Source of the DNA: Zingiber officinale
Lineage: Eukaryota > Streptophyta > Magnoliopsida > Zingiberales > Zingiberaceae
NCBI RefSeq assembly: GCF_018446385.1
Contig: NC_055991.1
Coordinates: forward strand, 118,587,794-118,651,793
DNA: 64,000 nucleotides
Direction of reading: 5' to 3'
Shown here: one piece after another, positions 29,395-64,000 of the stretch
How positions within the stretch are numbered: the stretch's first letter is position 1
Layout of the letters: every line of letters starts with the position of its first letter
The notes under the pieces: generated by a model
Database searches by the model: none
Seen by the model: only the letters and a program-made list of their open reading frames with translations
Told to the model about the DNA's origin: nothing
Made by a program: the position numbers and the translations under genes

Positions 29395-40582
<11,188 letters not shown>

Positions 40583-42477
40583 TCTGCTCCGATCTGGCGA
40601 CCTCGCTAACCATCAATGGATAGGGGAAGCCGAGGCGAATATAAAAAAAGGGGATCCAACGGGGCCACAATTTTGGAGAAGGAAGAGGGAAAGGTGTAGG
40701 AAGATGGGGGGAAGGAAGGCAGGGGGTGCTGGTGGTCAAAGGAGGAGACCGTCTTGGATTCAAGGCAACCCCTCCATTTCTTTCCCTTTTTCACCCTCTC
40801 TTTCTCCCTCGAACATGAACACGTCCAGGATCGGATAGAACACCATCGAGATGGGAAGAACAATTTTTTTACGAGCAAAATCGCCATAAAAATCGCTTCT
40901 TTTTTTTTTTAATCGAAAGAAGAACTGGATCTTTGATTCTTAGTCCCGTTCTCCCCACAAAATGGCTAACTAAATCAGCTTTACGGCGGCAGTGGGTCCT
41001 CCTTCGCCCGCCCTTGTGATTTGCTGGTGTCAGCATGGGTATGTTCTATACGCGTAAATTTGTCTCTACCCGCCCAGCTTCAACCTGCCACGCGTATTTG
41101 GACAGATCAAAAGGAAATATGTTTCATTTTGCACCCCAACATTTTAAATATATTTTAATATATCCCTTGGAACTTTTTAAAAACGTACCTGTACAATTTA
41201 AAAACTCAGGTCTCTACCTCGACACCATAAATTTAACCTCATTGACTATTCCTACGATGATTAATCCGATCCAACGGAAATTTCCCATCGACCACTAAAA
41301 TAAATCAGGAAACGTAAGTCGCGACCAACCTAGAAGTCCAATATCCTTTAATTACGTCTCTCATTTAAAGAAAAAATTCTTATAAATATATTACGTCGAT
41401 GTCTGGATGACAATTTAAACATCCAACCATGAAACTTTAGCCCCAGATAAAAAAATAATATTATAGATAATTGAGATGATCAACCTTGTGATCAATTTTG
41501 ATGATTAAGATCTTAAAATTGTTTATTTGAAAGTCTAATAGTTGACTAAATCAGATGTTTATTTATTTATTTTTTATAATTTAAGTGCCCAGGCTCCTTG
41601 GTTTATCTATTTTTTCAAAATATTCGTCCTATTTTGATATATTAATAACTTCAATCTTATTATTTTATGAAAAAAATCTAGATTTTTTTATAATTTTAGT
41701 AAAATCTAATATAAAATTACATTTACATCCTTTTTCTTCCCACACTCAAAATAATTTTAATTTTATCTGCTTAACTTTTATATAAAAAATATATAGTGTC
41801 TTATTTCACTTTAATTTCATATTTTATGATTGACAATACGATAAGTAAAAAAATTTTTATAAAGATTTTGGACGATGTATAAAAAAAATATATTTCTCAA
41901 TCTTTTTGATTAAAATAAAACGTAATATTTATTCATGTCAGTTAATATTTAATATAAAAAAAATTAATTTTTTATAAAAAAAATCTATTACAGCAACTTG
42001 ATACATTTAAGTATTAATTAAAATTATCCAAATTTAATTAAAATTAATTAAAATGCTCTTCGAAACCTGATCAACACTGAAGATTTAAAATAATTTGGGC
42101 CAAAATGATTACAACAGCATTTTTGAAACATTGACGCTCTTTTTGTCTTTTTTGGAAGAAAAAATTAAAATCGTGAGGGATTAAGAAACATGTCGATCAA
42201 TCAACTGATTACTGTACCATAAGAAAGTCATCGCCAAGTTTTTTTGGCAACTGGAGACCGAGACAACTCGGACGACAACACACGGTTTGACTCGGTCGGC
42301 ATCCCCCGACAAGTTTTACACTTCGCATCACAAAAATGAATCGGCGTCATGCGCAGCGGGTTGACTTGACAGTTGGTCCAACGCAGAAAACCCTAAAAAA
42401 ATTTAGGTCCAAGTGAAATTTAATTAATTAGCTAATAAATTATTACTTTTTGTGGTAAAGAAAAGATAAATATGTTC
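40583..42477. other. intergenic region upstream of CPK
   Basis: The first 400 bp is purine/pyrimidine-biased and GC-rich, fitting the CPK 5' UTR and promoter. From 41,100 it is AT-rich with no gene signal. Confidence 0.5.
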
Positions 42478-42620
42478 GTCCCCAGTATCCTTGTCAACCC
42501 ATCTCAAGGTCAACACGAAGAAAATAAATAACGAGCGGTTACTAGTCTTTGGAATAATGACTAATACATAAGAGAGGTATTTATCTCGACTTTATCGAGA
42601 TTCGAACCTCAGCTAATAAA
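42478..42620 (-). repeat. SINE-like fragment, copy 1
   Basis: GTCCCCAGTATCCTTGTCAACCC up to CGACTTTATCGAGATTCGAACC matches the better copy at 43498-43735. On the minus strand GGTTCGAATCTCG is a Pol III B-box. The A-box end is missing. Confidence 0.55.
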
Positions 42621-42782
42621 CTATTACGCAGTTTATATGAGAGGAAGGAAATAGCTCCATAATGAAAGATTTTTTTAATGAATAATGGATTTGAAAATAT
42701 TGATTGTCAAAATGGACCTTCATATTTACTTTCTCAATTTATCTTAATAATTAATGAATAATTTTCGTACAGCTAGATAGTA

Positions 42783-43120
42783 GATGAGATCCTCTGTCCT
42801 ATTTTTTTATATATCCATGTCCCATTCATGATCAGATGAATCACATCAGATCATGCATCCTTGAGATTTGACATGATCTGATATTATCCGTCTGATTAGT
42901 GAATGAGACACGGGTACACAAGAAAAAAAGATGAGATCCTCTGTCTCGAAAATGCCGTGTCCCAGCGCCGATCGGATGAACTAAATCACATCTCAAGGAT
43001 GTAATGTACATCATGAAAATGTCATAGCCGTCCGATTGACGCTGGGACACGAAGACACGTCATTTTCGAGATAGAGAATCTCATCTCCAAGAAAAATGGG
43101 ATACAGGATCCCATCTCGTC
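42783..43120. repeat. two adjacent hairpin MITE-like units
   Basis: GATGAGATCCTCTGTCTCGAAAATG with CGTGTCCCAGCG at about 42930-42970 is mirrored by CGCTGGGACACG and CATTTTCGAGATAGAGAATCTCATC at 43040-43086. A second, weaker copy of the same termini starts at 42785 (GATGAGATCCTCTGTCC). Confidence 0.65.
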
Positions 43121-43497
43121 AGACAAATCATCCCAAAATTAATAGACATGAAGATTTAAATACTAAAAAAATAATAGAATGGAATAAAAACTTCACAAAG
43201 ATGTTTCCCGTGTTTTTTATTTTCACATTGAATTCTTTTTCTTCTTGAATCCGTTTGATGCAACGTTTGATATAAACGATGATTAAGCTTATGGCGCTTC
43301 TTCATGTCCGTCCCAAGATATAAAAAAGATAAATTACTATACCGCATGATATGTAAGAGAAACCAATTCTATAAGGAAATGGATCTTAGAGGATTCAAAT
43401 CTTACTCTTTTGATATAATTCTATCATTCAAGTACTAATTCAATTACGTCCCTAAGAACTTTTATTCTTGAATCAATTGGGTAAAAAGTCTATTATG

Positions 43498-43735
43498 CTT
43501 GTCCCCTTATCCTCGTCAGCCCACTATGGTGATAAAAAAAGACGAATACGCTCACCCTCAACGCCCCCACCAACCCGTCCCAAGGTCAACACGGAGAAGA
43601 TAAATCACGGACGGCTATTAGCCTTTGGAATAGTAACTAACACATAAGAGAGACATTTACCTCGACTTTATCGAGATTCGAACCCCAGACCTCATGATGA
43701 CAACACCTCATCCACTAGACTCATCCGAGGAGACC
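43498..43735 (-). mobile_element. tRNA-derived SINE-like element, copy 2
   Basis: On the minus strand it reads GATGAGTCTAGTGGATGAGG (A-box-like region), then GGGGTTCGAATCTCGATAAAG (B-box), then a body shared with 42478-42620. Target duplications are not clear. Confidence 0.55.
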
Positions 43736-45707
43736 ATCATGAGAGAGTAAATCATAGTATGATAACATGGATAGAAGGACGAGTTATACCAGGATACCGG
43801 AATTTATGCCCTATCAGTCCTAGAATTCGACATTACTCGTGGGATAAATCTACCCTCTACTAACTCACTATTTCAGCTAAGTCCGTTGGGGCTCCCACCC
43901 GGTTGAGTGATTAAGTGAAAAAATATAATGTCTCACGAGAGAAGTAAGAAGTTTCAAAGCATCCAATAAATTCAATTTAAAAATAAATTAAAATAAATCT
44001 AATTTCATTATTTTAATGACAACATTAACAAAACACGACATGCATTAATAATTCCAATAAGATTTGGTCCCCGTGGTCTTGGTCATACGGCGGCTGGGAT
44101 TAATGATCAATACTAATTGGTACTCTTTTTCCTGATCGCCAATTAATGACTCTCTCCTCTTTCTAATGAACTTGACTTTTCCAAGATTTCAAAGTTCAAA
44201 GGAATCAAATTGTCTTCTTTTACATTTTTTAAAAAGGTAAACAAAACCAAGTCGTCGATGTGAATTATGACGATGTTAATTGGTCGCTAATTAGGGAGAA
44301 GAAGATGAACCGATGGATTACGATTGTTTAAGTGTGATTGTTGAAGCTGAATGAATCGAGCGAGCTAGGTAAGTTTCGCTGACCCGACCGATTGAGAGTT
44401 CGGACGAGTGAACAAAATCAAAGGCTTAGAAAGACTGAGCTGATTAGGAATCGACAAAACCGAGCAAATCTAAAGGTCAAACAAATCGAGTAGGGTGAGA
44501 AAACTAAGTATGTTGCACTAGTATAATCAAACAAACCGAATCAATTGTTCGGCCAAATATGCAATGTTTCATAGCAAGATCACCAATTGGCTGCACACTA
44601 ATTCAGGTTCAAATTGAAGTTGTGAATTTTGAACTTTTGAGTCAGAAGAAGTAGAGTTCGGATTAGAGTTAACAATCAAAGACCTCGCGGGCAATTGAAC
44701 CCAACCACCGCTCTTGGTTTGCTCGCGAGGGAGTAGCCGATGCCGTGGTCTGAAAAAGAAGATACAAGCAACTTGGCCCTTTCTCCTTCCTACCTCTTTC
44801 CTTTCTCTCCTCTCCTTTTCTTTCCTTTCCATACTCTTCCTCCCCCTTATCGCGTCCAACATAATCAAGGCCTTAGTTATCGATCAATTACGCTAACTCA
44901 ATCTTCACTCCCTAAATATCAACAACTAGTACTAAGAACACACTGATCACTTTGAACAGCTATAGCATCTATATCAAACGTCTATACTTCACCATCAAAC
45001 TAGTCTTGTTGATCGGCCTTACCGAAAAAAAGATGCAATATTACAATGGAATTGATATAGACGGCTGCTATCACAATTATGAGAATGTTGTAGTGCAAGA
45101 CAGAACTGTAAACTAGAATGATATAACTTTGTTGTATTTGTCTCATTCATATTTCTCACGTCAACCATGAATTCAACATTTAAAGAATGATTAGATTCAC
45201 TAACAAAATTTATATATAGGCACAAATTTCATATCAAACTTATTCAATGAAAAAGAAAGAACTTGTATTTGACAATACATATGACTGGGAAAGGCGATTA
45301 GAACATACCACTGCGAAACTAAGCTCCAGGGAGTCTCCGTATCTAGTTCGGTGTTGAATTGTAATGTTTAGTACATATTCGAGCTTCCGAATCAAGTTTT
45401 CTCCTTGCTGCTATTGTTTCTCTCACAAAGTCCATTGCCGTGTGTGCTAAATTCCAAGTGTAAACAAACATTTCCTCCCTGATGTTACTTAAGTGATGAG
45501 CTAAATTCTTGTACTCCGTCCAGCTATTTAGTCTATCAGTTAGGATATCTTTGTCTTTATCAGATTCCTCGTCTCTTGGTTCTTCAATCAAACCACAATT
45601 TGGATGATGTAGAAGGGATGACAAGAATATGTGTATCCACAATATCAATACGAGACTGACCTTATGAAGGATATCTAACTTTTAAGAGATACTCAAACTC
45701 CAAACAC
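43736..45707. other. intergenic region, CPK to PPR
   Basis: AT-rich, no gene recognised. A 101-codon minus ORF at 45343-45648 (Asp/Glu- and Lys-rich, start MILWIHIFLSS) has no family I know. It could be part of the 3' transcribed region of the PPR gene. Confidence 0.4.
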
Positions 45708-45898
45708 ATTCACGACCTTTGCATACATTCGAACCAGAGTCTGATCATGTCGACCAAGGAATTAAGCTGATTGTATTCTCCCACATCTTCTTTCAATCCT
45801 TTCACATCCATTAACTTTCTTACTTCAACAACTTCATTCCAAAAGCCAGCATTGTTTCAAGTAAATACTCGAAAACTTTATCTTTTGACCGAACAGGC
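45708..45898 (-). pseudogene. duplicated 3' end of the PPR gene (E-motif fragment)
   Basis: On the minus strand it reads AGFWNEVVEVRKLMDVKGLK and then EDVGEYNQ, closely parallel to AGLWNEIGEVRELMKVKGLK and then KDVGHSQV at the end of the adjacent gene. Both units end with TCCAAACACATTCA on the plus strand, so this is a diverged tandem duplication of about 190 bp. Confidence 0.75.
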
Positions 45899-45910
45899 AT
45901 CCAAACACAT

Positions 45911-47257
45911 TCAAACTGAATCGTAACCATTTCGTAGGCTGAAGGAATCAACCTGACTGTGCCCCACATCTTTCTTCAATCCCTTCACTTTCATTAATTC
46001 TCTTACTTCACCAATCTCATTCCACAAGCCAGCAGAGGCATACAAGTTAGACCACTCCACATGAATCCCTGAATTGTAAGGATCGAATTCCAGAGCCATC
46101 TTAGCAGCAATCTTCCCTATCTCGACGTTCCCGGAGTTTCTGCAAGCACTAAGCAAAGCACCCCAAACACTGACATTCAAATTACCACCACCAGATTTAT
46201 TTTCCATCATCATCATCTCATTGGCAAACTTCCATGCCATCTCCAAATTCCCTGCTTTGCAAAGCATATCAATCACACATCCATAATGCTCAGCTCCAGG
46301 AACCATACCGTGCACACGCAAGATCGAATTGAAAAAGTTGAGACCCTTGATCACATTACCCGAGTGACTACAAGCTGAAAGAACAGCCAACAAAGCAATC
46401 TTATCGGGTTCGATCCCTTCAAGTAGCATTTTCTCGTATGTTTCTACAACCTCAGCAAACTTCCCATTCCGGCCGTAAACATTGAGCATCGAAGTCCATA
46501 GCACGACGTCCTTGCGTGTTACATGTGCAGCCATATCGAACACCGAGTGAGCCTTGGCTACAAGGCCGCACCGTGCATACATTTCCACCAAGGAGCAAAT
46601 GAGGACAGCGTTCTCGGTGAAGGCACTCCTGCGGAGAAGGTATGCGTGCGTTTGCAAGCCCAATGGGGTGGCCGGCGCCTCGGAGCAAATCTGCAAAACG
46701 GCGGACACGGTGAAGCCGTCGGGCTCCAGTGAGAGCTCGCGCATTCTGCGGAAGAGGCGGAAGCCCTCCGTCCAGCGCCGGCTCTCGACGTATCCGCCGA
46801 GGAGGGAATTGGCGCAGACCGTGTTTCTGTGAGGCATTTCGTCGAACACCTGGGAGGCATCCTCCACGGCGAGCGATCGGGCGTAGCAATCGATCAGAGC
46901 GCCGCAGACGAAGACGCTGGAGAGACAGCCGGAGGTGAGCCCGCGGGCGTGGATCTGACGAGCGAGGTCCGGGGAGGCGACGGTGAGGGCGGAGCAGAGG
47001 GAGTAGGAATCGGAGGGAAGGCCCAAGCTGTTGAGGATTGCGAAGGAGAGTAGCGCCGAGGAGCGAAAGCCGTGGCGGGCGAAGGCGGCAAGGAGAGAGT
47101 TCCAGCGGGAAGCGTCGGCGGGGTGGCGGAGGAGGAGGAGGAGTTTGGGGTGAACGGCGGCGTGGGGGAGGAGGTGGGTTCGGAGTAGGCGACCGTGGAG
47201 GGCCTTAGCGGCGGTGCCGGCGGCGGAGATCCGGGTTGCTGGTTGGATTTGCATCAA
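45911..47257 (-). CDS. PLS/E-class pentatricopeptide repeat protein
   Basis: Sequence-specific RNA-binding protein, presumably of plastid or mitochondrial transcripts. A single uninterrupted frame of 448 aa, intronless as usual for the family. Repeats are recognisable from about residue 50: 'ASRWNSLLAAFARHGF', 'FVCGALIDCYARS', 'NTVCANSLLGGYVESRRWTEGFRLFRRM', 'VLICSLVEMYARCGLVAKAHSVFD', 'DVVLWTSMLNVYGRNGKFAEVVETYEKM', 'DKIALLAVLSACSHSG'. The E-like tail 'VWGALLSACRNSGNVEIGKIAA' and 'NLYASAGLWNEIGEVRELMKVKGL' follows. No DYW domain; the frame ends NGYDSV, shorter than many E/E+ proteins. The N-terminus is Arg/Ala-rich with few acids, compatible with an organelle transit peptide. It starts 540 bp from the divergent SRT1 gene. 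The editing or processing target is unknown. Confidence 0.9.
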   Translation of the reverse strand: MMQIQPATRISAAGTAAKALHGRLLRTHLLPHAAVHPKLLLLLRHPADASRWNSLLAAFARHGFRSSALLSFAILNSLGLPSDSYSLCSALTVASPDLARQIHARGLTSGCLSSVFVCGALIDCYARSLAVEDASQVFDEMPHRNTVCANSLLGGYVESRRWTEGFRLFRRMRELSLEPDGFTVSAVLQICSEAPATPLGLQTHAYLLRRSAFTENAVLICSLVEMYARCGLVAKAHSVFDMAAHVTRKDVVLWTSMLNVYGRNGKFAEVVETYEKMLLEGIEPDKIALLAVLSACSHSGNVIKGLNFFNSILRVHGMVPGAEHYGCVIDMLCKAGNLEMAWKFANEMMMMENKSGGGNLNVSVWGALLSACRNSGNVEIGKIAAKMALEFDPYNSGIHVEWSNLYASAGLWNEIGEVRELMKVKGLKKDVGHSQVDSFSLRNGYDSV

Positions 47258-47797
47258 AATTACAAAGATGTCTCGAATCGAATCTTTTGATAAATTTGCG
47301 AGGGGCTCATAGATATTACACCTTTATAGATTTCACCCCCAAAATTTCTTATTTTCTCATTACCCCTTTTTTGGGTTTAATGCTCAACCCAATTTCTTAC
47401 CAGAATTTCAATTGGCTATCATTCTGGACCCACTTGAGAGCCTGTCTCTTAAGCAGACGTCAAGTATCTACAGTGTAAATTCTCCGTTCTCGCAACTTTT
47501 ACGGACTTCGATGTTCTGTTTCTTCTTTTGCCAGCTTCGTATTTCTCTTCGGAAAATAGCGAGAGTGCCTTCCTGTTTTTTCGATCATTTATTTTACTAT
47601 CTTCTTTTGCCATCTTCGTAGTTCTTAGGGGAGAAGAAGGTAGAGGAGGGCAAAAACGTTTTTTGATCAGTTTTTTTAAAATGTTTATTCAGTTCTTAGG
47701 GTAGAAGAAGAGGGAGGGACAAGGGTTCTAGATTGGGTTTTGTACGAGGTGAAGGAAGAAGAAAACAGTAGAAGCAGCGGAGGAGAAGGTTGAAGTC
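47258..47797. promoter_or_regulatory. shared divergent promoter region, PPR (-) and SRT1 (+)
   Basis: 540 bp between two divergent start codons. The SRT1 side is purine-rich (GAAGAAGAGGGAGG, GGAAGAAGAAAACAG) and probably transcribed leader. No clear TATA box for either gene. Confidence 0.5.
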
Positions 47798-50700
47798 ATG
47801 TCTTTAGGCTACGCCGAGAAGCTCTCCTACCGGGAGGACATCGGCACTGTGGGCATGTCGGAGATCTTCGACCCTTCCGACATCCTCCATCAAAAGGTAT
47901 TCTTGCTTTCCCTGTCCTCCTTTTTGTCTCCTAAATTGCTGCTCGTGTTGATTTATCCATTATTGTAATTTTAGCAATAGGAAAAAGAGAGAGAGAGAAA
48001 AATGTGAATGTGCTGTAATGTGCTGCTTTGAGAAGCAAAATAAGACCCATTACGGATGCTTCTTTTGTTTTTTGTTCATTCTCTTGCCATCATCATCAAG
48101 CAGTATCCATTCCAATTATTTGACATCAGTTACACAAATTCAGCTCTCTATTGAGCTTTTTGAAAGACTATCACTATTCAAATTGATCATAGTTTTTTTA
48201 ATTATATTTGCTCTAGATGCAAACAATAGTAGATCAATTTAAAATAAATCAGTCCAATGGTTCCTAGTCCAAACACTACCTATGACAATTAACTCCGCCA
48301 TGGCTGATCCCAAGCCCGGATAAAGGAGGAGAGTTACGCTAGGTTAGGTTGTCAGCCAATGCCAAAGAAAGACAAATGTTATGTATAGATTCATCAAACT
48401 ATTGTTATTAATCGTTCAGAGACCGCATATTGTTGTCCATATAAAAGAGATTCCGAGCCACTTGTTTCATTAATTTTATTTTAAACTTTTTGATTCCTTT
48501 ACAATTGCTCCCTCTTTGTAAGTAATCAACTGCATCACTTTATAGCTTTTACACCTATTTTTCACGTCGTCTCTACTTGTTTTTCTTAGCTTATCATCTA
48601 TTAATGCTACACATTATTGCATTGAGATTATAATTGTTTCTTTTTTACATTTATTTTATGGCAAAATGTTTTTAAATTATTTTGGTTTCCTGTAGATTGA
48701 AGAGCTTGCCTTGATGGTAAAAGAGGTAAGAAAATGAGGGTGTAACTCAAATCTTTAAGATTTTTGAGTCTCATCTTTTTCTTAAACAGAACATCTATTA
48801 TGGCAGAGCAAACATTTAGTGGCATTCACAGGAGCTGGGATTTCTACTTCAAGTGGCATTCCTGATTTTCGAGGACCTAAGGGCGTTTGGACTCTTCAGG
48901 TAATGTCATCTCAATTATACCAATGTACATTCGCTGACTAGCACCTTCTCTTTCTCTTTTACGACTTATTTATGTTATTTGAATAATTCCTAGTGGTTTA
49001 CTAGAAGTTTTTTTTGTTAATCAATAGAGAATTTTGGCTGCAGATGAGTTTGAAATCAGAACTGAGCTTGTCTCATTCAATTATATCTCTAAAAAGCACT
49101 GTTCCTTATTTCTTTTCATTTTGCCCCCATTTTTACATCATGAAGAAGTGAAAGGTCTTACTGTCAATAGAGGAGCCTGTGCATAGAAACAGAACATTGT
49201 GCATTTCATTCACTTTCTGATACAAACACATTTGGAATTTGAAAAATTCTTATTGTGTATCAAGGTTTGAAATCTTGTTTCCAACCGGGGTTTCGGTTTC
49301 CGGTCAAAAAGAGATGTGTTGGTACCATGCTCACAATGCCAACACACGGTGCTGAAGACACCTCAAAAGGAATTGGATAAGAGGAGGAAAAAGAAAGCCC
49401 TAACCTTATTGTGCAGTTGGCGCAAAGCTCGCGACAATGTCATCAAAGGCCTGTGCATTTGTGGATGTCGTTATAACAGTGGAAACCTCTAGTCGCATTG
49501 CCTCGAATAATGGAAACCTCAGCTTTCTCTCAAACAATGGAAGTTTTGAACGACTTCATCATCTTGGACCAAAAAAGCCTCAAGCTATTTTGTCATCTCA
49601 AATAGCTTGATGAAGCTTAACTGTCACAGGCTGAAGGATTCAAGATGCCACTTTGACAGAAGGGAAACAATGATGAGCGGTTTCTGGTCCAAGTCTTGAT
49701 CGAGCATGTACCACGTGCCACTCAACGGGTGGAAAGAGATGTTTCACCCATACCGACTAGCATAGAACGGGACTTAAATCCTTGTGTGCATTCTTGTTAC
49801 AATAATTATTTTCATAGAGCATGAATCTAGTTAATTTTACTAGAATGCCATATTTAACCAATTCTGTAAGGGTTATGTTTTTTGGATAATCTATCAATTT
49901 CAGTAATGCTAGGAGTATAATGAGTTGCTGGCTAAATAGGCTGTGTATTCAAAACGTCGTGCATCCACATTTGCTTTATTTGTACAATAACTTGTTTTTT
50001 CGTCTATAATATAGTGGTTCAAGCTGAAGTATTCCTTTTTCCCTTTTGGTACTTCTTTGTTTTCAACTTAATGGGTCATTCTGTTACCTCTAGTTTATAG
50101 TGACATCACATTTTTCACTGTGTTCATGTGGCTTTTCCACAGATCCAGAGTCATTTTTCTGATCCAATTACAAAGATTTTCTTATGGATAAAGTAACATA
50201 AGAGGTCTCTCTTGTTAGAGGGGTGAATGATGAAATTTCCAGTTATTGTCAGACACTGGAAGCTGATTATACTAGCTAGTACTGAACTTTGTGGACTCAT
50301 TCTTAGCACGCTTCAATTCTTTTGATCAGTGCAATCTATGCAGATGCATTTGCTACCACAATTCCATTAGCAACTGCTATGTATAATTAACTAATTCTTT
50401 CATCTCATGTCCAGCGTGCAGGCAAGGGGTTGCCTGAAGCATCACTTCCTTTTGATCGTGCAATGCCAAGTTTGACTCATATGGCTTTAGTTGAATTGGA
50501 GAGGGTTGGTATCCTTAAGTTTGTTATCAGCCAGGTAATTGGAATCTTCTTGTTCATACCTTGATATCTCGAACAAAAATCATTATTGTTTTGTATGTGA
50601 GGGAATTGATTTTACATTCTGAAAATCACATGCAACAAAAATAAAAATTGACAATAGGAGAGATTGGAGCTTTCTCATCTGGAAGTATGGATGTTCATTT

Positions 50701-53700
50701 CAAATAAACAAGAGTTATTTAATTGACTAATCGTTTTGTTTTTTTGTGTACTATTGTAGTTGACTGAATAACCACTTGTCCCAAAAGCCTGAATTATTAA
50801 ACAAGAGGCCAATCTATATATTTATATTCTTAATACTCTCCCTTTATGTGTGGATGAGTATACTTGACTTGATTGGAGATAAACTAATGGGATAATATTA
50901 CCACCTATTCCAAAAGCGTGAGTTATGAGGAAAGAGATAAATCAATATATTTCTATTCTTCATATGAATTGTACATGTGGTTGTCATTTCTTCCATCATC
51001 ATCTGAGCCATTTCCTACTAATGTCATTTGCAATCACTAAGTTCATATAAGACTGACAAGCAAAATGCTAATGCTCACTGACACCAACAACTTAAATATA
51101 TGATGGCTCCTAAATTTCTAGCATAGACACGACTAAACAGAAAAATAGAAAAATCAGAAGATAAAAAATTCTCTATGGTTATGCTATTTATGGTGTTAGA
51201 CTTCTGCAATGCCTTCGGATCCATTACACCAGTTAAATTGGTTAAACTAGCTATCTGTATGGTTCCAAGACATTGGTAATACCTTGTACAGCCAATAGAT
51301 GAGTTACTTTTTATTACATTGGCAAGCCCTAAATTCCTCTCTGTATAGGATATTTAGTTATAAGATCCTTTAACTATTTACAATTTGCATCTAAGTATTC
51401 ATTTAGACTTACATATATAACAGCATAAAATAAATACAATTTTGGCCCAAAGTGGCACTCATCAATGCTGAGACTGTTTTAAGTCTATGCCAGGAAGTTC
51501 TTTTCTTGTTTTGTTTTTTGAGGTATTATGTTCACATACCATATCCAATGTCACTGAGATTAAGAAGGTCCTCTAGAATGAAACCTACTCGTGATTAAAG
51601 CAGGCTGTTGAAAGGGCTGTTGCATATTGCAGGGTCTCCATTTTGCCCACCTTACCCATGAATAAGGCAATTAAATGAGTTGGAAATTGATTCTCTGGTT
51701 AAGCCTCTCATGAATAACACCATCTTGGCTATTTTCCTAGGTTTCTCTATGATCATTTATTGTTCTTCAATTCAGGGTATTGCAGTTTTTCCTATGTTTC
51801 AAGTGCATGCTTTTGATTGCGACTTCTAATATTAACACACCATGTTGTAACTTTTTTGCTAGAATGTAGATAGTCTTCATCTGCGATCAGGAATACCTAG
51901 AAAAAAGTTAGCTGAATTGCATGGAAATTCCTTTCGGGAAGTTTGCCCTTCTTGTGAAACTGAGTATGCTTTCACCACCATCCTTATTTCTTTTATAAGC
52001 TATTTCTTTGCTCCTGATTTTGTCACTTTTTTAACCAGTATGAACACAGTGTTTTCCACTAAGATTTACAATATCTTGCTCGTCTTTTGTAAAAATGTAT
52101 AATTTTCTCATTCAATATAGTTTGTAAACCCTTCTAGGTATGTACGGGATTTTGAAGTTGAAACCATTGGGATGAAAGAGACATCAAGGCGTTGTTCTGA
52201 TACAAACTGTGGTGCAAAGCTTAGGGATAGTGTTCTTGATTGGGAGGTGATAAGCTGTTACATTGTCTGGTTGTTTGAATATTGCTAAAATTTCTACTTC
52301 TTGCAAGTGCATGCTATATTAGAGCTAGTACTTCTTGAATGTGCAATTTCTGTAGTTTATTTCTTCATTGCTCACAGATATACTTTGATATATGTACGGA
52401 CATCTATCTTATAGCTTTTTTATGCTGCTTCTTAAAAAAAAGTACGTTATAGCAACCAACATCCTCAAACAATTTGTATAGCCATTCTTTTTAAATAAAA
52501 ATGACACATGGACTTGCTCATTTGTTCCAGTAATGTGCTGATGTATCCTCATTTAATATGTAAGAAGAACAATTCATGTATCCCATATGATTGCTTGTCT
52601 GTTTCATTATCGTTCAAATGCTAATGTTTCTGGTATCTTTTTCATGAGAAGTTTGTTTTCACGCCTTTCACAACCTGCAGGATGCTTTGCCCCCTAAAGA
52701 GGTGAATGCTGCTGAGAATCACTGCAAAACTGCTGACCTTGTATTGTGTTTAGGGACTAGGTAATCTTTTGCTCTGCGGGCATCTGGAAGATCATAAATT
52801 ATGATAAAAAGTACTTATGCTGCGACACTTGCTAATATCGTGTTTTCCTAACTTCAAAAAATGTTTGTTTGTTTTTTTGCTTATTCTTTACAATGTTAAT
52901 GAAGAAAGAAAGAATTTCCATACATATAGGGAGAGCTTCAGAGTTTTATGTTTTGAATTACACTACTAATTTCTAAAGATTGTGTACTTTTTTTTGTTCA
53001 ATAATGTTGTAGTTAAGCTTTCTGATTGCTATGTTGTTCCACGTAGTTTGCAGATAATGCCCGCTTGCAACTTACCTTTGAAATGCATCCGAAACAATGG
53101 AAAGATTGTGATTGTAAATCTTCAGGTATCAAAGTATCTAGTCATGGTGGGATATATATTCTCATTTTGCTCTATCCACATTGGTGTTAATATTTGAGTG
53201 TTATAACATCTAAATGATGTTATAAACTAATGTGGATAAGTGTCATAAAAGCTACACATTAACAATGTTGAATTCTTTGATTGTTGTTAATGAACACATT
53301 TTATATAAAAAAAATTCAAAAATTAAGAAAATAAATTTTGAATAAAATAATAAAAAACAATAAATAGATAGTGGGACACACAAATAATTAATATTAATGT
53401 TAAAATGAATGTGAGTGTGTGTTAAGAAAAGAAAGTATTAATATAATGGGTACGTGGTATGCTATTTGAAGAGGTGACGTATATTAACGGTCAAACCAAT
53501 GCGGATGCTTTGCATAAAAACGACATTAATGCAGAATAAGGATGTTTTTCCTTGTCAACTTAATCATATTTCATGCAGAAATGACAGACTAATAAGCATA
53601 TATATAAATCAATTATCAATGAAGATAGAACGGGATATGTAACTTCATACCACTCTAAGATAATAAATAGAAACTATTTTATTTCTAAGACATCAATGAA

Positions 53701-56700
53701 TTGATTAATTAACAGAAAATGAAAGATGTAATTTTTTCAAGAATATTGTTGAACTGAACCTGCAAAATGTTCTTTTGATATGAAGGAAACAATGACAGGC
53801 TATACAGTTCCCTAACCATTATCATCCATTGCATACTTCCTCCTAAGTGTTTTTTCTTTTTTCACCTTTTACTTTTCACAATACATGGATATAAAGGAAA
53901 AAATTACATAGATTATACGTCATTTAACAATACATTATTTTGTTAAGTTCTCAATAGACTTACATAACTTACACTTCTAAGCTATTAGGTTAGCAATTTT
54001 TTAATCATTTTATAAACACACACTTGTGATTCTAACACTATAGACAATGCGAAATTATTGCATATGACATGATTGTATCAAAACATTTTCTTCATCGTAG
54101 TGATACCACATGTATCCTACTTCTCAAGTTTTGTCCTATAGCATTTGAAGGACATTTCTACCATATGATATTAATATCCTATAGCCTTATATTCATACTC
54201 TGTATTAAACAAAGCACCTCCAAATGATTAGCAAGTGCAGAATTAGTAACCAAATAAGACTTGTTATAATCCGAAACTTAATTAGACTCTACATGTATGT
54301 TATGAAGGTTTAATTATGATTTATTGGGAATAAAGTAGTGTTTATTGCTGAACCAAATAGTTTAAAGGTTTGATTTAGTGATTTCAATTTAATTTCAGTT
54401 TGGGCTTGGAACAAACTCAAATCAGATTTAAAATGGACTTATTGGTTTGGACCAAGGTGAACTAAACCGAATGTATCCAGCTGATTGGGTTAGAATAAAG
54501 TATAGGTTGGTTGAATTGTTAAAATCACCTTTCTCCTAATGCTTCCATCGGATCACATGCCCTTCATCTCGCTCTAGGGTCGGCGATGAGGGGCGCTCGA
54601 TCTTAGCGAAATCACCTTTGCTTCATTCTATCGGATCACATGGGCACCACCTCTCTCTCCCATTAGGTGTAACATCAGAGCTACCTTCTTCCTCGTCTGC
54701 AAGTTACCGCCACCCACTCTGCTCACAATTGCATTGACTTCCTCTCCTGTCCAAATGCCACTGCTCACCTCAATCTCTCCCTATCCTCTTCCTCACTCTC
54801 ATGATGTTGCTCAACGGGCAGCTTATTCAACTATGCGTTGCCTGGCTACCACCGCCAGAGGCATCACATAATCATAGTTGTGTCACCAACTGTAGTTGTT
54901 TCCTCTTGTATTGATCAAGCTATCTAAGTTAGTTGTTTACCCAGTCACATGGCCTTACTAACACAAAATGATTTCAAATGTTATAGAACACAAGATTAGT
55001 TGATGAACATTCTTCTCGCCTAAGTGTGCTCAACTTTTTGAACACCAGAAACAAACTTTTCAAAAAGATGAAAAGCTAGCATTAGAGATGCTCGAAGTGC
55101 AAGATTTTTAACACCCTTCTCGCTTTCTAAGTTCTCCCCTAGCATCAACGGTGCTCCAATTCTCGAGCCCCCTGACTTTCATTCTCTCAAGCTTGCATTT
55201 ATATAAATCGAGTTAATGGGGCGAATTGATCCGATTCACCCATGTCGTTCAAACATTTAAGTAACAAGAGAAAGAAGAGTGACTCACCCAACGCCCTATC
55301 TGAGAAGATGGAAGCAAAAGAAGAGGCAACAAAGTGGACGACGGTGAGGTTAAAACTCCATCTCCTCCGTTGCATTCTGTGTTATGGCCATCTCACCCCA
55401 CCTATCTACCAGGTTAAGATCTTCTTCTTGAGTTCAATTGTTATCAATATCTTACCTTATGTAGTTGATATTTTGCTGTCTCAGTGTCAAAATGGACATT
55501 AACTTTTTATTATCTCGGTTTGAAAAAGGATTCGTAATTACATGTTGTAAATGCCAGAGGAGCTCCTCCTCAATGATAGGATTTAACTGAAACCATGCTC
55601 TAGAACAGATGATAGAGTCTTTATCCATCTCGTGTTCTCATTCTACCCACGGATGCAACAAATATGTTCCTTACCTCAAGGATTCAATAGCAAACCACAA
55701 GGAGGATTGTAGCTATGCACCTCGCCCTTGCTTTATCAAGGAATGCACATTCAAAGCACCAAATGGAGCCCTTGTACGACACCTCACAACCGAGCACCAC
55801 TTCATGATTCACAACTTCAACTATGATGTTCCGCTACGAGTCTCCATGGACTTAGCGGAGCCATTGCTAGAACTCAAAGAAAGTGACGATGGCGTCAACT
55901 TCGTGCTTCTTAATACTTTCGATAAATGTTCAGACCATAGAAACTTCTTAGTTGTGTTTTGTAGTCAATCTCGTCGTTCCAAGAAGTTGTTTAGCAAGCT
56001 GGTAACGTTGTTGGACGAGGGAATGGAGCTTCGACTTAAGGTTCTCGTCAAACAATGGAAAAGATTTTTTTCCAAACAAGTCTTTCTTTTCATTCCGGGT
56101 ACCTTCTATGGTCAAGATGGAAAACTCGACTCATATGTATGTCGAGGTATAATCCTTTCTGCATTTTGCTCATTGGAGAAAAAGGTAATTTCGCTCACCC
56201 AAGCGAGCAGTATTGTCGGCCCCACAGCAAGATACAGATATGTAAATCATGGGGGTATTTTGTGCTAGCGCAAAGGTCATTTGCATGGGAAAGTCACGCA
56301 TCCAACGAGATATTTTGCACCTACAGGAAATTGACCCCAAGATCTATTAGAGCAAACATCCATACAACTTATTCAACTACGCGTTGTCTGACTGCCACTA
56401 CCAAAGGCATCACACAATCATAGTTGTGTCATCGACCATACTTGCTTCATCTAGTATTGATCAAGTTATGTAAATTAGTTGTTACCTAGCCAAATGACCT
56501 TACTGACACAAAATGATTTCAAAAGTTGTAGGCAACAAGATTAGTTGATGAACACCCTTCTCGTTTAAAAGTGTGCTCAACTTTTTAAACACCAGAAACG
56601 AGGTTTTCAAAAAGCTAACATTAGAGATATAAGTATTCAGCTTATCAACACCCTTCTTGCCTTCTAAGTGCTCCTTTAGCATCTAGGGTGCTCCATCTCT

Positions 56701-59700
56701 TGAGTCCCTTGATCTTCATTCTTTCTAACTTGCATCTATATAAATCCAGTTAATGGGGTGAACTGATCTGCTCCACTCATGCCAGTCAAATATTTAAGCA
56801 ACAAGAGAAAGAATAACGACTCATTCAGTGCCCTAACTGAAAAGATGGAAGGAAAAGAAGCGGCAAGTGGACAACGGTGTGGTTGAAACTCCATATCCTC
56901 TATTGAACTCTATGCGACGACTGTCTCACCCCACCTATCATCAACCCCTTACATTATGTAGTTGATCTTTTGCTATCTCAGTATCAAAATGGATATTAAC
57001 TTTTTGCGGTCTAAGTTTGAAAAATGATTTGTCATTACATGCTGTAAATGTTAGAAGATCTTCTCAGGATTGATCTGAAACAACGTTCTAGAATAGGTGA
57101 TAGAGTCTTTATCCATCTCCTGTTCTTATTCTACCCACGGATGCAACAAATATGTTCCTTACCTCGAGAATTCAATTGCAAACAACGAGGAGGATTGCAG
57201 CGATACGCCTCGCCTTTTCTTCGTTAAGGAATGCGCGCTCAAAGCACCAAATGGAGCCCTAGTACTACACCTCACGACGAATCACCACTTCACGATTCAC
57301 AACTTTAACTATAAAGTCTCGCTACGAGTCTTCATGGGTCCAACTGGGCCATTGCTATACTTAAAGCGAGTGACGACAACGTCTGCTTCGTGTTGTTTAA
57401 TACTTTTCGATAAATGTTCAGACCATATTAACTTCTAAGTGGTGTGCTGCAGTCAATCTCGTCCTTCCAATAAGTTGTTTTGAAAGCTTAGCGAGATCGG
57501 ACGAGGGAATGGAGTTTCGGCTTAAGGGATTATTTTTCAAATAAGTCTTTTTTGTGGTTCCATGAAATAATCCTTTTCATTGTTGGACGGGAGCCTTAAG
57601 CCGAAGCTCCATTCCCTCGTCCGATCTCGCTACTAGCTTTTGAAACAACTTCTTGGAAGGACGAGATTGACTGCAGCACACCACTTAGAAGTTAATATGG
57701 TCTGAACATTTATCGAAAGTATTAAACAACACGAAGCAGACGTTGTCGTCGCTCGCTTTAAGTATAGCAATGACCCTGTTGGGCCCATGGAGACATGTAG
57801 CGAGACTTCATAGTTAAAGTGGTGATTCGCCGTGAGGTGCAGTACTAGGGCTCCATTTGGTGCTTTGAGCGTGCATTCCTTAACGAAGAAAAGGCGAGGC
57901 GTATCGCTGCAATCCTCCTCGTTGTTTGCAATTGAATTCTCGAGGTAAGGAACATATTTGTTGCATCCGTGGGTAGAATGAGAACAGGAGATGGATAAAG
58001 ACTCTATCACCTGTTCTAGAACGTTGTTTTAGATCAATCCTAAGGAGATCTTCTAACATTTACAGCATGTAATGACAAATCATTTTTCAAACTTAGACCG
58101 CAAAAAGTTAATATCCATTTTGATACCGAGACAGCAAAAGATCAACTACATAATGTAAGGGGTTGTTGATAATGATTGAACTCGGGAAGGAGGGCCTAAC
58201 CTGGTAGATAGGTGGGGTGAGACGGTCGTCGCATAGAGTTCAATAGAGGATATGGAGTTTCAACCACACCGTTGTCCACTTTGCTATCGCTTCTATCTTC
58301 TCAGTTAGGGCACTGAATGAGTCGCTATTCTTTCTCTTGTTGCTTAAATGTTTGATTAGCAAGAGTGGCTCAGATCAGTTCACCCCATTAACTGGATTTA
58401 TATAGATGCAAGTTAGAGAGAATGAAGATCAAGGGACTCGAGAGAGCACCCTAGATGCTAAGGGAGCACTTAGAAGGTGAGAAGGGTGTTGATAAGTTGA
58501 ATGCTTATGTATGTCTAATGTCAGCTTTTTGAAAACCTCGTTTCTGGTGTTTAAAAAGCTGAGCACACTTTTAGACAAGAAGGGTGTTCATCAACTAATC
58601 TTGTTACCTACAACTTTTGAAATCATTTTGTGTCAGTAAGACCATTTGACTGGGTAACAACTAACTTGATCAATACTAGATGAAGCAAGTATGGTCGATG
58701 ACACAACTATGATTGTGTGATGCCTTTGGTAGTGACAGTTAGACAATGTGTAGTTGAATAAGCTGTATGGATGTTTGCTCAAATAGATCTTAGGGTCAAT
58801 TTCCAGCAGGTGCAAAATATCTCGTTGGGTGCGTGACTTTCCCATGCAAATGATCGTTACACTAGGACAAAATACCCTCATGATTTACTTGTCTGTATTT
58901 TGCTGTGGGGCCGACAATACTGCTCGCTTGGGTGAGCGAAATTACCTTCTTCTTCAATGAGCAAAATGCAGAAAGGATTATAGCTCGACATACATATGAG
59001 TCGAGTTTTCCATCTTGACCGTAGAAGGTACCCGGAATGATAAGAAAGACTTGTTTGGAAAAAAATCTTTTCCATTGTTTGATGAGAACCTTAAGCTGAA
59101 GCTCCATTCCCTCATCCGACATCATTACCAGCTTGCTAAACAACTTCTTGGAACGATGAGATTGACTACAAAACACAACTAAGAAGCTGTTATGGTCTGA
59201 ACATTTATCGAAAGTATTAAGCAGCACGAAGTTGACGCCATCGTTACTTTCTTTGAATTCTAGCAATGGCTCCGTCGAGCCCATGGAGACTCGTAGCGGA
59301 ACATCATAGTTGAAGTTGTGAATCATGAAGTGGTGCTCGGTTGTGTGGTGTCGTACGAGGCCTCCATTTGGTGCTTTGAACGTGCATTCCTTAACAAAGC
59401 AAGGGCAAGGTGCATAGCTACAATCCTCCTTGTGGTTTGCTATTGAATCCTCAATGTAAGGAACATATTTGTTTTATCCGTGGGTAGAATGAGAACATGA
59501 GATGGATAAAGACTAGCATCTGTTCTAAAGTATGGTTTCGGTTAAATCCTGCCATTGAGGAGGAGCTCTTCTGGCATTTACAACATGTAATTACGAATCC
59601 TTTTTCAAACCGAGACAATAAAAAGTTAATGCCCATTTTGACACTGAGACAACAAAAGATCAACTACATAAGGTAAGATGTTATTGATAACGATTGAACT

Positions 59701-62700
59701 CGGGAAGAAGATCTTAACCTGGTAGATAGGTGGGGTGAGATGGCCATAACACAGAATGCAATGGAGGATATGGAGTTTTAACCTCACCGTCGTCCACTTT
59801 GCTGCCTCTTCTTTTGCTTCCATCTTCTCAGTTAGGGTGCTGGGCGATTCACTCTTCTTTCTCTTGTTACTTAAATGTTTGAACGACATGGGTGAATTGG
59901 ATCAATTCGCTCCATTAACTTGATTTATATAAATGCAAGCTTGAGAGAATGAAAGTTAGGGGCCTCGAGAGTTGGAGCACCATTGATGCTAAGGGAGAAT
60001 TTAGAAAGCGAGAAGGGTGTTAAAAATCTTGCACTTCGAGCATCTCTAATAGCTTTTCATCTTTTTTGAAAAGCTTGTTTCTGGTGTTCAAAAAGCTGAG
60101 CACACTTAGGTGAGAAGAATGTTCATCAACTAATCTTGTGTTCTATAACATTTGAAATCATTTTGTGTCAATAAGGCCATGTGACTGGATAGATAGCTTG
60201 ATCAATACAAGAGGAAACAACTACAGTTGGTGACAACTATGATTGTGTGATGCCTCTGGCGGTGGTAGCCAGACAACGCATAGTTGAATAAGCTGCCCGT
60301 TGAGCAACATCATGAGAGTGAGGAAGAGGATAGGGAGAGATTGAGGTGGGCTACACCTAATGGGAGAGAGAGGTGGTGCTCATGTGATCCGATAGAATGA
60401 AGCAAAGGTGATTTCGCTAAGACCGACGCCCCTCATCGCCTGCCTTAGAGTGAGATGAAGGACATGTGATCCGATGGAAGCATTAGGAGAAAGGTGATTT
60501 TAACAATTCAACCAACCTACACTTTATTCTAACCCAATCAGCTGGATCCATTCGGTTCAGTTCACCTTGGTCCAAACCAATAAGTCCATTTTAAATCTGA
60601 TTTGAGTTTGTTCCAAGTCCAAACTGAAATTAAATTGAAATCACTAAATCAAACCTTTAAACTATTTGGTTCAGCAATAAACACTACTTTATTTCCAATA
60701 AATCATAATTAAACCTTCATTACATATATGTAGAGTCTAATTAAGTTTTAACAAGTCTTATTTGGTTACTAATTCTGCACTTGCTAATTATTTGGAGGTG
60801 CTTTGTTTAATACAGAGCATGAATATAAGGCTAAAGGATATTATTATCATATGGTAGAAATGTCCTTGAAATGCTACAAGCCAAAATTTGAGAAGTAGGA
60901 TACATGTGGTATCACTATGATGAAGAAAATGTCTGTGTAATATGCAACAATTTCGCATTGTCTATAGTGTTAGAATCACAAGTGTGCGTTTATAATATGA
61001 TTAAAAAATTGCTAACCTAATAGCTTAGAAGTGTAAGTTATATAAGTGTATTGAGAACTTAATAAAATAATGTATTGTTAAATGACCTATAATCTATGTA
61101 ATTTTTTCCTTTATATCCGTGTATTGTGAAAAGTAAAAGATGAAAAAACACTTAGGAGGAAGTATGCAATGGATGATAATGGTTAGGGAACTGGATAGCC
61201 TGTCATTGTTTCCTTCATATCAAAAGAACATTTTGCAGGTTCAGTTCAACACTGTTCTTGAAAAAAATTACATCTTTCATTTTCTGCTAATTAATCAATT
61301 CATTTATGTCTTAGAAATAAAATAATTTTCATTTACTATTTTAGAGTGGTACATGAAGTTACATATCCCGTTGTATCTTCATTGATAATTGATTTATATA
61401 TATGCTTATTATTCTGTCATTTCTGCATGAAATATGACTACGTTGATAAGGAAAAACATCCTTATTCTGCATAATTAAATGTTGACATTTTTTATGTAGG
61501 GCATTCACATTGGTTTGAACGTTAATATACGTCACCTCTTCAAATACCATACCACGTACCCATTATGTTAATAACTTTCTTTTATTAACACACATTCATT
61601 TTAACATTAATATTAATTATTTGTGTGCCCCACTATCTATTTATTGATTTTTATTATTTTATTCAAAATTTATTTTCTTAATTTTTGAATTTTTTTAATA
61701 TAAAGTATGTTCATTAACAACGATCAAAGAATTAAACGTTGTTAATGTGTAGGTGTTATAACACTTATTCACATTAGTTTGTAATACCATTTAGATGTTA
61801 TAACAACTTCATATTAATTGCAGATAATTGCTATCACATATGTCAAGTTAATTGATTTTTCCTTAAAATTAGTTGAGAGACACAATAGGGATTTAGCTGG
61901 AAGTGATATGAAACTTGGAGCATCGTGCCACTACCAATCATCTAAGATTTGGTTTTAAAAAAGAACACCTGTTCAACCTTGACAAACAAAAGTCTTTTGG
62001 ATTTCTGTACGAATAATAAAAATACACGCAAGATGTGCATAAATATACCTTGTTATGACATGAACAGTTTGAATCTTGTGCTCTTGGAAGGCAATAATAA
62101 TCTTATGCTGAAGTGGATGAACCACAAAAGTCAATACTATGATCTGGATCATGGATTTTTTGATTGTTCTACCAACTTGCAACAATCTCTCCTGAAGTTC
62201 GTTTCAGTTTGAGAGATTAAAATTGTAGGTGAAACTTTGCAAGATCTGCCTTACGCTGCTTTAAAATACAAAGATAGAGATATCGAGGTACAAGGTAATG
62301 CAGAATGATAGTGGTTGAGTGGAAGATCCATGCCTTAACCTGTTAATACTTTGTTTGAAGAAAACTTGAGATTTAAACCTGAGAGCTAAATGCTTTACCG
62401 AAGAAATCTAAGCTGTGATATAAACAACAAAAATCTAACATATCTGAAGATACTTAATTCCAGTTCTTGCCTACAGATAGTTATCTCCTATAAATCTCTT
62501 CACATTTGTAGCTAGAAGCAGAGATTGAGAGTAAACTTCTATTTTGAAATTGAAATTATTGTGCAAAATGAATTCTGATTTTTGTCCTTTTATCAGTTTC
62601 GACAATTAAATTATGTTTTCTAGTTGGAAACCTTATGCATTCAAAGTAAGAAATAAAATAAGTTGATGAATTTCCTCGGTTCAATTATTACTTATTCTTC

Positions 62701-64000
62701 TGCTTCTGTTATCCCGATTTTGGGTACTGATGAGTCTCATCTTTCATTTTTTCGCATCTGACTTTTGACAGCCAACTCCGAAGGATAAAAAGGCTAGTCT
62801 GGTGATTCATGGGCTTGTGGATAAGGTGGTTTCTTTTTTCTCTACTTTTGCTCACTACCTTCTGGGATTATCTATGGTTTATTACCATTGTATCTTTTTG
62901 AAAATTGACTTGTGGATAAGGTGGTTTCTTTTTTTCTACTTTTGCTCATTACCTACTGGGATTATCTATGCTTTATTACCATTGTATCTTTTGAAAATTG
63001 ACTTATGATAAGTAAAATGTTTCGGTGCTGCTTTTGTTTTGCAGTTAACTCCCCATAAAGGATGGTTTTAACTCAAGTTAGGGATTATTCTTAAAAAATT
63101 CGGCCTTAGAAATGTGAATCGTCCTTGGACACAATTTTCAATATCAATGTAGAAAAGTGAAAAACCTTACCTCTAACGCTTCTCAGACACCAAAAAACTA
63201 TCCTCAGAAGAAATCCTTTCTCTACAAGTTTCTTGGTCTCCCACAACTTCAAACCAAAATGCTCCTTTGGTGAGATATTTGTAGCCCTACCAGTTACCGT
63301 AAAAAACATGCTGAAAATCATCCAAAAATCCTAAAAAAAGATTTATTTGTGCTTGAGCTATAGTTGGCCCTATTGGGTCGTATATGTTAGCGAACTCAAC
63401 ATGATATTGGTTACATTTTTGCTGAGCAAGATCAATTGTAATTGTTTGTTCTAGTCTTAAAACACTAATGCTGAATGCCATCCTAAAGAACTATCACACT
63501 CAATTTGATTATTACACTTGCTCTATGTTTCCATAGATTTTTGCACATTCAGTTTCTATTTTCTTCCACTGTACACTTCTTCTGTTAACTTAGCAGCATT
63601 TGGCTTCAATCTTACAGTAGCTTGGCTTATGGGTCTGTCTACTTTAACTCCGCAAATTCTACTATACTTTGATTTTTTTATTCTACCATAATGCTAATCA
63701 CGGTGTGAATTATAACAGGTCATTGCAGGTGTCATGCTCTTTCTTAATCTGCGAATTCCTCCATATATCCGCATCGACTTTGTTCAGCTTGATCTGTCTC
63801 ATTCGCCAAAAAGTAAGATTCAAGTGTATTCTTTCTCTGGTCGCAAGAAAGTTCCTACTAGGCCAGAGTAATATATACTCTGTCGATATAAAATGATTGT
63901 TGAACTTTTTGCTCTTTGATACTTCAGAGAACACTTACGTCAAATGGACAATGAGGATTATGAGCATACATGGACCTAGAGCTCCATTACCTTTTCTCAA
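47798..64000 (+). CDS. SRT1: SIRT6-type NAD-dependent deacylase, SRT1 (3' end outside window)
   Basis: Class IV sirtuin; plant SRT1 proteins are nuclear histone deacetylases. Exons: 47798-47896, 48696-48725, 48807-48899, 50415-50534, 51863-51963, 52138-52246, 52681-52760, 53047-53125, 62772-62825, 63719-63812, 63928-64000 and on. Phases agree throughout; about 310 residues visible of an expected 470. The start [16 protein letters not shown] matches the family. NAD loop [20 protein letters not shown] (52-71), QNVD (114-117), catalytic His134 in ELHG, zinc Cys142/145/167/172, GTSLQI and 'GKIVIVNLQ'. Odd points: residue 118 is Ser where NVDG is usual, and intron 8 (53126-62771) is 9.6 kb because of a giant inverted repeat. 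The last visible exon reads '[20 protein letters not shown]'. An alternative donor copy lies after exon 9. Confidence 0.95.
53173..53508. mobile_element. MITE-like element at the left edge of the inverted repeat
   Basis: Terminal inverted repeats TATCCACATTGGTGTTAATAT (left) and ATATTAACGGTCAAACCAATGCGGAT (right) pair with a short gap. The interior is AT-rich and non-coding. The homologous copy on the other side (61501-61804) lacks the outer TIR. Superfamily not determined; no clear target duplication. Confidence 0.5.
55242..56268 (+). pseudogene. SINA/SIAH-like RING E3 ligase, copy A
   Basis: SINA-like proteins pair a RING with a SIAH-type zinc finger and a substrate-binding fold. Exon 1 (55242-55412) starts [12 protein letters not shown] and ends '[16 protein letters not shown]', the first half of the RING. 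A GT/AG intron leads to 55485 with 'CQNGH' and then a TAA at 55500-55502. Another frame continues with '[17 protein letters not shown]'. From 55609 to 56268 a 219-codon frame encodes the SIAH zinc finger (C-x6-G-C-N-K, H-K-E-D-C, C-F-I-K-E-C, H-x5-H-type spacing) and the C-terminal domain ('[11 protein letters not shown]', '[13 protein letters not shown]'). The middle RING cysteines are not found, so ligase activity is unlikely. It lies within intron 8 of SRT1. Confidence 0.8.
56779..57530 (+). pseudogene. SINA-like copy B, truncated
   Basis: A second, more decayed copy in direct orientation to copy A, about 1.5 kb downstream. The SIAH-finger frame 57097-57438 ([19 protein letters not shown]) is homologous to copy A, but the frame breaks at 'CSDHINF'. 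The sequence is cut at the loop of the inverted repeat. Confidence 0.75.
57536..57564. other. loop at the centre of the giant inverted repeat
   Basis: About 29 unpaired bases lie between GGATTATTT and AAATAATCC, so the two arms almost touch. Confidence 0.8.
57574..58352 (-). pseudogene. SINA-like copy B' (mirror of B)
   Basis: The SIAH-finger frame 58010-57633 starts [19 protein letters not shown] and matches copy B, including the '[18 protein letters not shown]' block. It has a small deletion relative to copy B ('[10 protein letters not shown]' versus '[15 protein letters not shown]') and is cut at the loop. Confidence 0.75.
58862..59889 (-). pseudogene. SINA-like copy A' (mirror of A)
   Basis: Exon 1 from 59889 reads [16 protein letters not shown] and ends at 'LTPPIYQ' before a donor at about 59719. 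The RING centre is again missing. The frame 59663-59451 reads '[17 protein letters not shown]' and the C-terminal part is 59326-58862 ('[20 protein letters not shown]'). Stops and a frame break separate the pieces. Confidence 0.78.
61501..61804. mobile_element. MITE-like element at the right edge, outer end missing
   Basis: It starts GCATTCACATTGGTTTGAACG, the same TIR as the inner end of the left copy. Its outer TIR is absent where the palindrome ends. Confidence 0.5.
62814..63003 (+). repeat. 95-bp tandem duplication spanning the exon 9 splice donor
   Basis: CTTGTGGATAAGGTGGTTTC occurs at 62814 (real exon end, donor at 62826) and again at 62909 (copy donor at 62921). The following 70 bp are also repeated with a few differences. 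Confidence 0.9.

Follow-up and report, generated by a model that had tools for sequence, protein, structure and literature searches.

A stretch of 64,000 nucleotides from ginger (Zingiber officinale; assembly GCF_018446385.1, contig NC_055991.1, positions 118,587,794 to 118,651,793), here called the window, contains a foldback of 8.6 kb built from SINA-like gene copies. It lies within an intron of a SIRT6-type gene, which we take to be SRT1. A reading made from the sequence alone had proposed such a structure, and comparison of the window with itself by BLAST confirms it. Two inverted blocks are found (E=0 for each): one pairs 53199-54671 with 61805-60352 at 91.9% identity, and the other pairs 54763-60351 with itself at 90.5%, gaps included. 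A chance repeat is rejected as the source of the foldback on the same values.

The host gene was delimited by its exon peptides and the bases beside them. Exons 1-8 lie at 47798-53125 on the forward strand, exon 9 at 62772-62825 (its end taken from AAG followed by GTGGTT), and exon 10 beyond it; the window ends, at 64000, inside the gene. The reading frame is open across the exons within the window. A SIR2 Pfam match falls in exon 3, and the joined peptides of exons 1-9 best match sirtuin-6 chains (E 4e-83, residues 1-255 of 256). Intron 8 begins with a GT after CTTCAG at 53125 and ends with an AG before 62772. It spans 53126-62771 on the forward strand, 9646 nt in all, of which about 8.6 kb is foldback. 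Because the exon peptides place exons 1-8 ahead of the foldback and the start of exon 9 at 62772, it falls in intron 8 and on the transcribed strand, as the sequence-only reading had it. Two further observations concern this gene and its surroundings: a tandem duplication at 62814-63012 (95-nt offset, 93%) spans the end of exon 9 and the probable donor site, and a pentatricopeptide repeat protein encoded near SRT1 has 99% identity, over 95% of its length, to one from Zingiber officinale.

Each arm has the same order of parts. The outer end is a Tourist-like miniature inverted-repeat transposable element (MITE) of about 0.34 kb. Next, towards the loop, come 1.2-1.3 kb of upstream sequence, a SINA-like unit A of 1.5 kb and a truncated SINA-like unit B. 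In the left arm (53199-57527, forward strand), the upstream non-coding part occupies 53513-54818, unit A 54819-56364 and unit B, 78% identical to A, 56365-57527. The right arm (57565-61805, reverse strand) holds B', A', the upstream part and the MITE, so that the foldback contains four gene copies, two in tandem per arm. Self-BLAST and an alignment of the four arms found in two haplotypes define both arms; self-BLAST and a codon alignment define the units, with Pfam in addition for A. Over the 4099 columns ungapped in all four arms, left and right differ at 233, or 5.7% (about 94% identity). The centre is short, as had been claimed, although self-BLAST gives a loop of 37 nt (57528-57564, no strand) and not 29 nt. 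An Rfam scan of the hairpin returned no family at gathering score.

Relatives of the arms occur elsewhere in the genome. Searches were made in the diploid assembly of 3.09 Gb and 211 contigs; below, C6 is the contig of the window, C5 the other haplotype, and C3, C4, C11, C12, C15, C17 and C18 are further contigs. The larger pieces of 53511-54886, around the upstream part, match C17/C18 at 75-81%, and this single-copy relative starts at the inner edge of the MITE. Parts of 54170-54460 recur upstream of SINA-like pseudogenes on C3.

The arms had been described as made of SINA-like genes, and the family is right while the genes are not whole. Pfam Sina_ZnF matches 55591-56265 in unit A at 33.6 bits, where 32 is the cut-off, and the foldback copies match five Curcuma longa proteins at 63-66% (E<=1e-3). 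The 225 codons of 55591-56265 are open, and a stop just before 55591 severs the 5' part. The open stretch of A' (58865-59473, reverse strand) reaches 17.3 bits, under the cut-off. A stop, frameshift or truncation is present in each of the eight foldback copies of both haplotypes. The copies are pseudogenes, two per arm, and MITE sequence makes up the outermost 0.3 kb on either side.

The same structure is present in the second haplotype. Both arms lie at C5:145132444-145141193 with SRT1 exons on either side, and seven of ten typed SRT1 peptides of C6 occur exactly in C5. A misjoined palindrome, which the sequence-only reading had set against its own proposal, is strongly disfavoured because the SRT1 gene of C5 contains this foldback too. 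Misassembly is held unlikely for a structure found in two haplotypes, each with its own mutations.

The order of events can be read from the four arms. Left and right arms are split in both haplotypes at 127 sites, the haplotypes are split in both arms at 13, and a single site is crossed; the inversion therefore came first and the haplotype split later. The tandem duplication of A and B is older than the inversion: across 1080 columns, 119 differences between A and B were already fixed before it. The order is tandem duplication, inversion, haplotype split. A rough clock, calibrated on a ginger-Musa synonymous divergence (Ks) of 0.7 at 63.57 million years (PMC8342452), dates the haplotypes to about 1.4 million years on the flanks, and the arms to between about 3 million years on transversions and 5 million on all sites. 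Ten of the 13 haplotype-specific sites common to both arms cluster at 56799-57527, adjoining the loop (p=3e-6), which suggests conversion between the arms, chiefly in the part nearest the loop.

C5 also holds one stretch, equivalent to window positions 38405-53765, twice and head to tail (G000:C5:145110001-145118190 against C5:145118188 onwards). The first copy is seen from window position 45574, the start of the piece compared, to 53765, and the second from 38405. The two copies agree at 99.7% over 8.2 kb. Their junction lies 567 nt into the left arm, without N. This may reflect a tandem duplication of recent date, or else a contig end that was left uncollapsed at the hairpin.

Differences between the haplotypes carry a distinctive pattern. 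C5 and C6 were compared base by base, with columns dropped that had more than 4 differences in 11 and with the right arm taken from 57600. Transitions to transversions (Ts/Tv) stand at 169/53 in the arms against 65/55 in the SRT1 flanks (p=5e-5). The excess over the flanking gene is of the C/T type. Transitions at CHG sites (H being A, C or T) are 3.6-fold more frequent in the arms (37/345 vs 12/408, p=2e-5), and those at CHH sites 2.3-fold (93/2479 vs 36/2211, p=9e-6). No difference between arms and SRT1 flanks is found for CG transitions (39/392 vs 17/220) or for transversions (53/8403 vs 55/7976). Polarised changes number 21/152 at CHG, 18/174 at CG and 59/1157 at CHH sites, with 37/2467 for A/T transitions. 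Taken kilobase by kilobase, the non-CG excess falls together with the foldback: the rate is 0.012-0.019 over 47300-52999; in the left arm it is 0.039 and climbs to 0.071 towards the loop. It is flat in the right arm (0.028-0.035), and beyond the foldback it is 0.023 and then 0.015. Divided by component, the non-CG rate of the foldback is 94/1916 for SINA sequence and 33/774 for the upstream part.

An excess at CHG and CHH sites with equal transversions is the footprint that non-CG methylation would be expected to leave. A possible artefact is that nanopore base calling errs at methylated cytosines and so produces apparent C/T differences. Arm-fixed changes are common to both haplotypes, which counts against such an artefact, and the ginger assembly was polished (PMC8342452).

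Taken together, the locus is probably, if far from certainly, a natural inverted repeat, composed of SINA-like pseudogenes and set within a gene that reads open in the window, which has been held in non-CG methylation in cis and is decaying by deamination. The C/T-type excess would be the trace of this methylation over a long time. The inverted repeat itself may be the trigger, through pairing of DNA or through hairpin RNA and small interfering RNAs (siRNAs), as at PAI1-PAI4 in Arabidopsis. Intron 8 would still be spliced out, and effects in trans would be absent or confined to related pseudogenes. The foldback is more likely a silenced patch within a gene than a weapon directed at other genes.

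A less probable account, and still one to be taken seriously, is that of an ordinary silenced repeat. Pseudogene-plus-MITE DNA would then be methylated like any intronic repeat, and the inverted layout would play no part. Arms and other DNA were compared over six regions: the two SRT1 flanks, intergenic 38405-42446, and the C17/C18 segment with its two flanks. Ts/Tv is 3.1-3.2 in the arms against 0.6-1.4 in all six, which speaks against the ordinary-repeat account. So does the rate at CHH sites relative to transversions, which peaks in the arms at 5.9 against 1.5-3.2 in five other regions (each p<=0.016). The upstream part also exceeds its single-copy C17/C18 relative at CHH sites alone (25/679 vs 5/405, p=0.02). 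Finally, Ts/Tv in the gene units climbs from 75/44 before the inversion to 137/34 after it (p=0.002).

Several results weigh on the other side, and against the inverted repeat as the cause. Besides the presence of the MITE, the C17/C18 control has a CHG rate of 6/79, similar to that of the arms (CHG to transversions, p=0.79). Its contrast with the upstream part is borderline when all non-CG sites are taken (11/484 vs 33/774, p=0.08). Repeat or pseudogene DNA may thus suffice, since this control matches the CHG excess of the arms and separates only borderline over all non-CG sites; that the best-matched control separates only partly from the arms is the main weakness of the explanation preferred here. 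Intergenic 38405-42446, where divergence of every kind is raised, exceeds the arms in raw CHH rate (59/975); in the two C17/C18 flanks this rate is 30/861 and 23/854. These flanks and the intergenic region have two to three times the transversions of the arms. The contrast before and after the inversion is confounded by coding constraint before it. The outer part of the arms has a weak Ts/Tv excess (27/19 arm-fixed, 37/19 later) compared with the inner part (66/15 and 98/33; outer vs inner p=0.01). CHH sub-contexts (CWA, with W for A or T, 33/671 vs other 60/1806, p=0.07) do not separate siRNA-directed from CMT2-type methylation, and the Fisher tests used throughout take sites as independent.

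Silencing in trans had been the central proposal of the sequence-only reading, in which the SRT1 transcript would contain a long double-stranded intron aimed at SINA-like genes and would silence an E3-ligase family. Pairing is possible: on the path of SRT1 transcription, 1343 of the 4309 21-mers taken from the left arm pair exactly with a 21-mer of the right arm, and the longest perfect helix between the arms is 107 bp. Mismatches do not clearly point to selection for pairing on the SRT1 strand, the ratio of G:U kept to A:C broken being 94:83 in C6 (p=0.45) and 98:67 in C5 (p=0.02).

The proposal is not supported where targets are concerned. A six-frame protein search of the ginger genome, with 110/110 candidates scored and 42 matches listed, found no intact close relative. 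Apart from the foldback copies themselves, the 42 matches are copies on C3 and C4 that are broken or partial, and more distant matches with open frames, at 30-34% identity, on C11, C12, C15, C17 and C18. The closest copies other than the allele lie on C3/C4 and are broken or fragmentary. Two of the distant open-frame stretches, each of 801 bases, on C12 and C17, were compared by 21-mer, and each shares 0/2689 of the 21-mers of 54819-57527 at up to 2 mismatches. Copy A does match the C3/C4 pseudogenes, with 39-60 of 1016 21-mers at 1-2 mismatches to each of 14 segments, some genes being represented twice among these. The C3/C4 pseudogenes tested share no 21-mer exactly with A, B or A', the minimum being 1 mismatch. 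These related pseudogenes are the sole candidate targets in trans that were found, and it seems improbable that foldback RNA is diced to siRNAs of 21-24 nt that silence SINA-like genes elsewhere.

At least seven SINA-like proteins occur in Curcuma longa (P0001-P0005, P0126, P0127), and in the five of them that were scanned the Sina RING is under the curated cut-off or absent. This subfamily with a degenerate RING, of at least seven members in turmeric, was found here in ginger solely as broken copies. A profile search returned eight proteins, of which one is from ginger, a gene model of chimeric structure that spans the C3 cluster. This cluster (C3:395001-485000; G000, L039-L047) is a repeated array of SINA-like pseudogenes, some of them as divergent pairs. 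Over it, the annotation ZIOFF_008974 fuses a SINA-like piece with other exons. Five C3 copies in the codon alignment have one frameshift in common.

It is similarly doubtful that the foldback is a composite or foldback transposon, moved into the intron as one unit between two inverted Tourist-like MITEs. Such elements do stand at both outer ends, each bordering a SINA-derived segment. The left copy (53170-53512, forward strand) has both terminal repeats recognisable in an alignment of 12 copies with their flanks. In the right copy (61493-61817, reverse strand), some 20 nt of the outer terminal repeat are missing, as seen from the alignment and from comparison of flanks. The terminal inverted repeat of the family, from the 12 aligned copies, is GAGCATCCACATTGG. 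The family has the Tourist-like traits of terminal inverted repeat, 3-bp TWA duplication and many copies; sequences 77-84% identical lie at 25 or more other sites of the diploid assembly, allelic pairs counted among them. TAA/TAA or TTA/TTA flanks strictly 5 of the 12 aligned copies, about two independent sites judging by the flanks. Comparison of flanks gave no clear target-site duplication for either of the two foldback MITEs. For the whole unit, no matching duplication abuts the outer termini, the flanks of which differ, as would not be expected of a foldback or Pack-type transposon. Among the best 40 of 799 genome candidates, no full-length copy of the foldback other than the allele was found. 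Because arm homology stops inside the MITE and the unit has no target-site duplication, the foldback is not classed as a transposon.

A more speculative idea is that SRT1 is gated by methylation, so that full-length SRT1 would require heterochromatin-tolerant processing of intron 8. This seems quite unlikely. If it were true, the dose of a histone deacetylase would reflect the state of silencing at the inverted repeat which its own gene contains, in a manner resembling that of IBM1 intron 7 for a demethylase.

It is scarcely credible that the copies still yield a small RING-less protein: the open codons of 55591-56265 and dN/dS values for A against A' of 0.50 in C6 and 0.36 in C5 would favour it, but the stop cuts this stretch from its 5' part, all eight copies are damaged, and the counts are small (22 nonsynonymous and 11 synonymous changes in C6). 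Coding constraint is likewise not convincing as the cause of arm similarity, with dN/dS of 0.30-0.92 over eight like-copy comparisons between arms or haplotypes, small counts and damaged copies.

Other repeats occur in the window. A further inverted repeat lies at 12138-14766, with arms at 12138-13285 and 13737-14766 that are 74-84% identical. A direct repeat of about 1.5 kb (16200-17674 and 21908-23465, 82% identical, 5.7 kb apart) possibly represents a pair of long terminal repeats.

The foldback can be compared with several known systems. Inverted duplication of genes is one origin of plant MIRNA genes. The ginger foldback resembles this model in its raw material, an inverted duplication of a gene fragment, and differs from it in having 4.3-kb arms, no Rfam match and no intact target found. 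No locus built like the ginger foldback is among the literature matches listed, in searches whose scope leaves out most subscription journals.

The heterochromatin sensor in intron 7 of IBM1 is similar in that a repeat lies in an intron of a gene for a chromatin modifier. There, a repeat of 150 bp is described whose methylation regulates IBM1 (PMC11265718); at the ginger locus, methylation itself is predicted from mutations.

In structure and in its predicted methylation, the foldback fits the kind represented by PAI1-PAI4 and VIM4-VIM2. Like PAI1-PAI4 of the Arabidopsis accessions Ws and Cvi, it consists of near-perfect inverted gene copies, tail to tail around a short centre (here 94% arms and a 37-nt loop), with non-CG methylation, which in ginger is predicted from mutations. 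Hairpin transgenes and PAI1-PAI4 are reported as densely methylated, and perfect inverted repeats in plants as drawing dense methylation that is largely kept in two mutants of RNA-directed DNA methylation (PMC9263138). At PAI1-PAI4 and VIM4-VIM2, siRNAs occur together with non-CG methylation (PMC13213937). Unlike the ginger foldback, which holds pseudogene copies in the intron of another gene and has no intact close homologue found, PAI1-PAI4 silences endogenous homologues in trans (PMC13213937, PMC9263138). VIM4-VIM2 of Cvi is likewise an inverted repeat of about 6.4 kb with a 50-bp centre; it differs in consisting of head-to-head VIM genes, in having siRNAs and trans silencing measured, and in lying, as described, outside the introns of other genes (PMC13213937).

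These natural Arabidopsis cases are variants between accessions. The ginger foldback is older than the split of two haplotypes, roughly 3-5 million years by the crude clock. It may therefore serve as a test of whether inverted DNA alone keeps methylation for that long inside a transcribed gene, and of whether deamination finally ends methylation, as C-to-T substitutions are reported to do in hairpin transgenes and other inverted repeats (PMC9263138).

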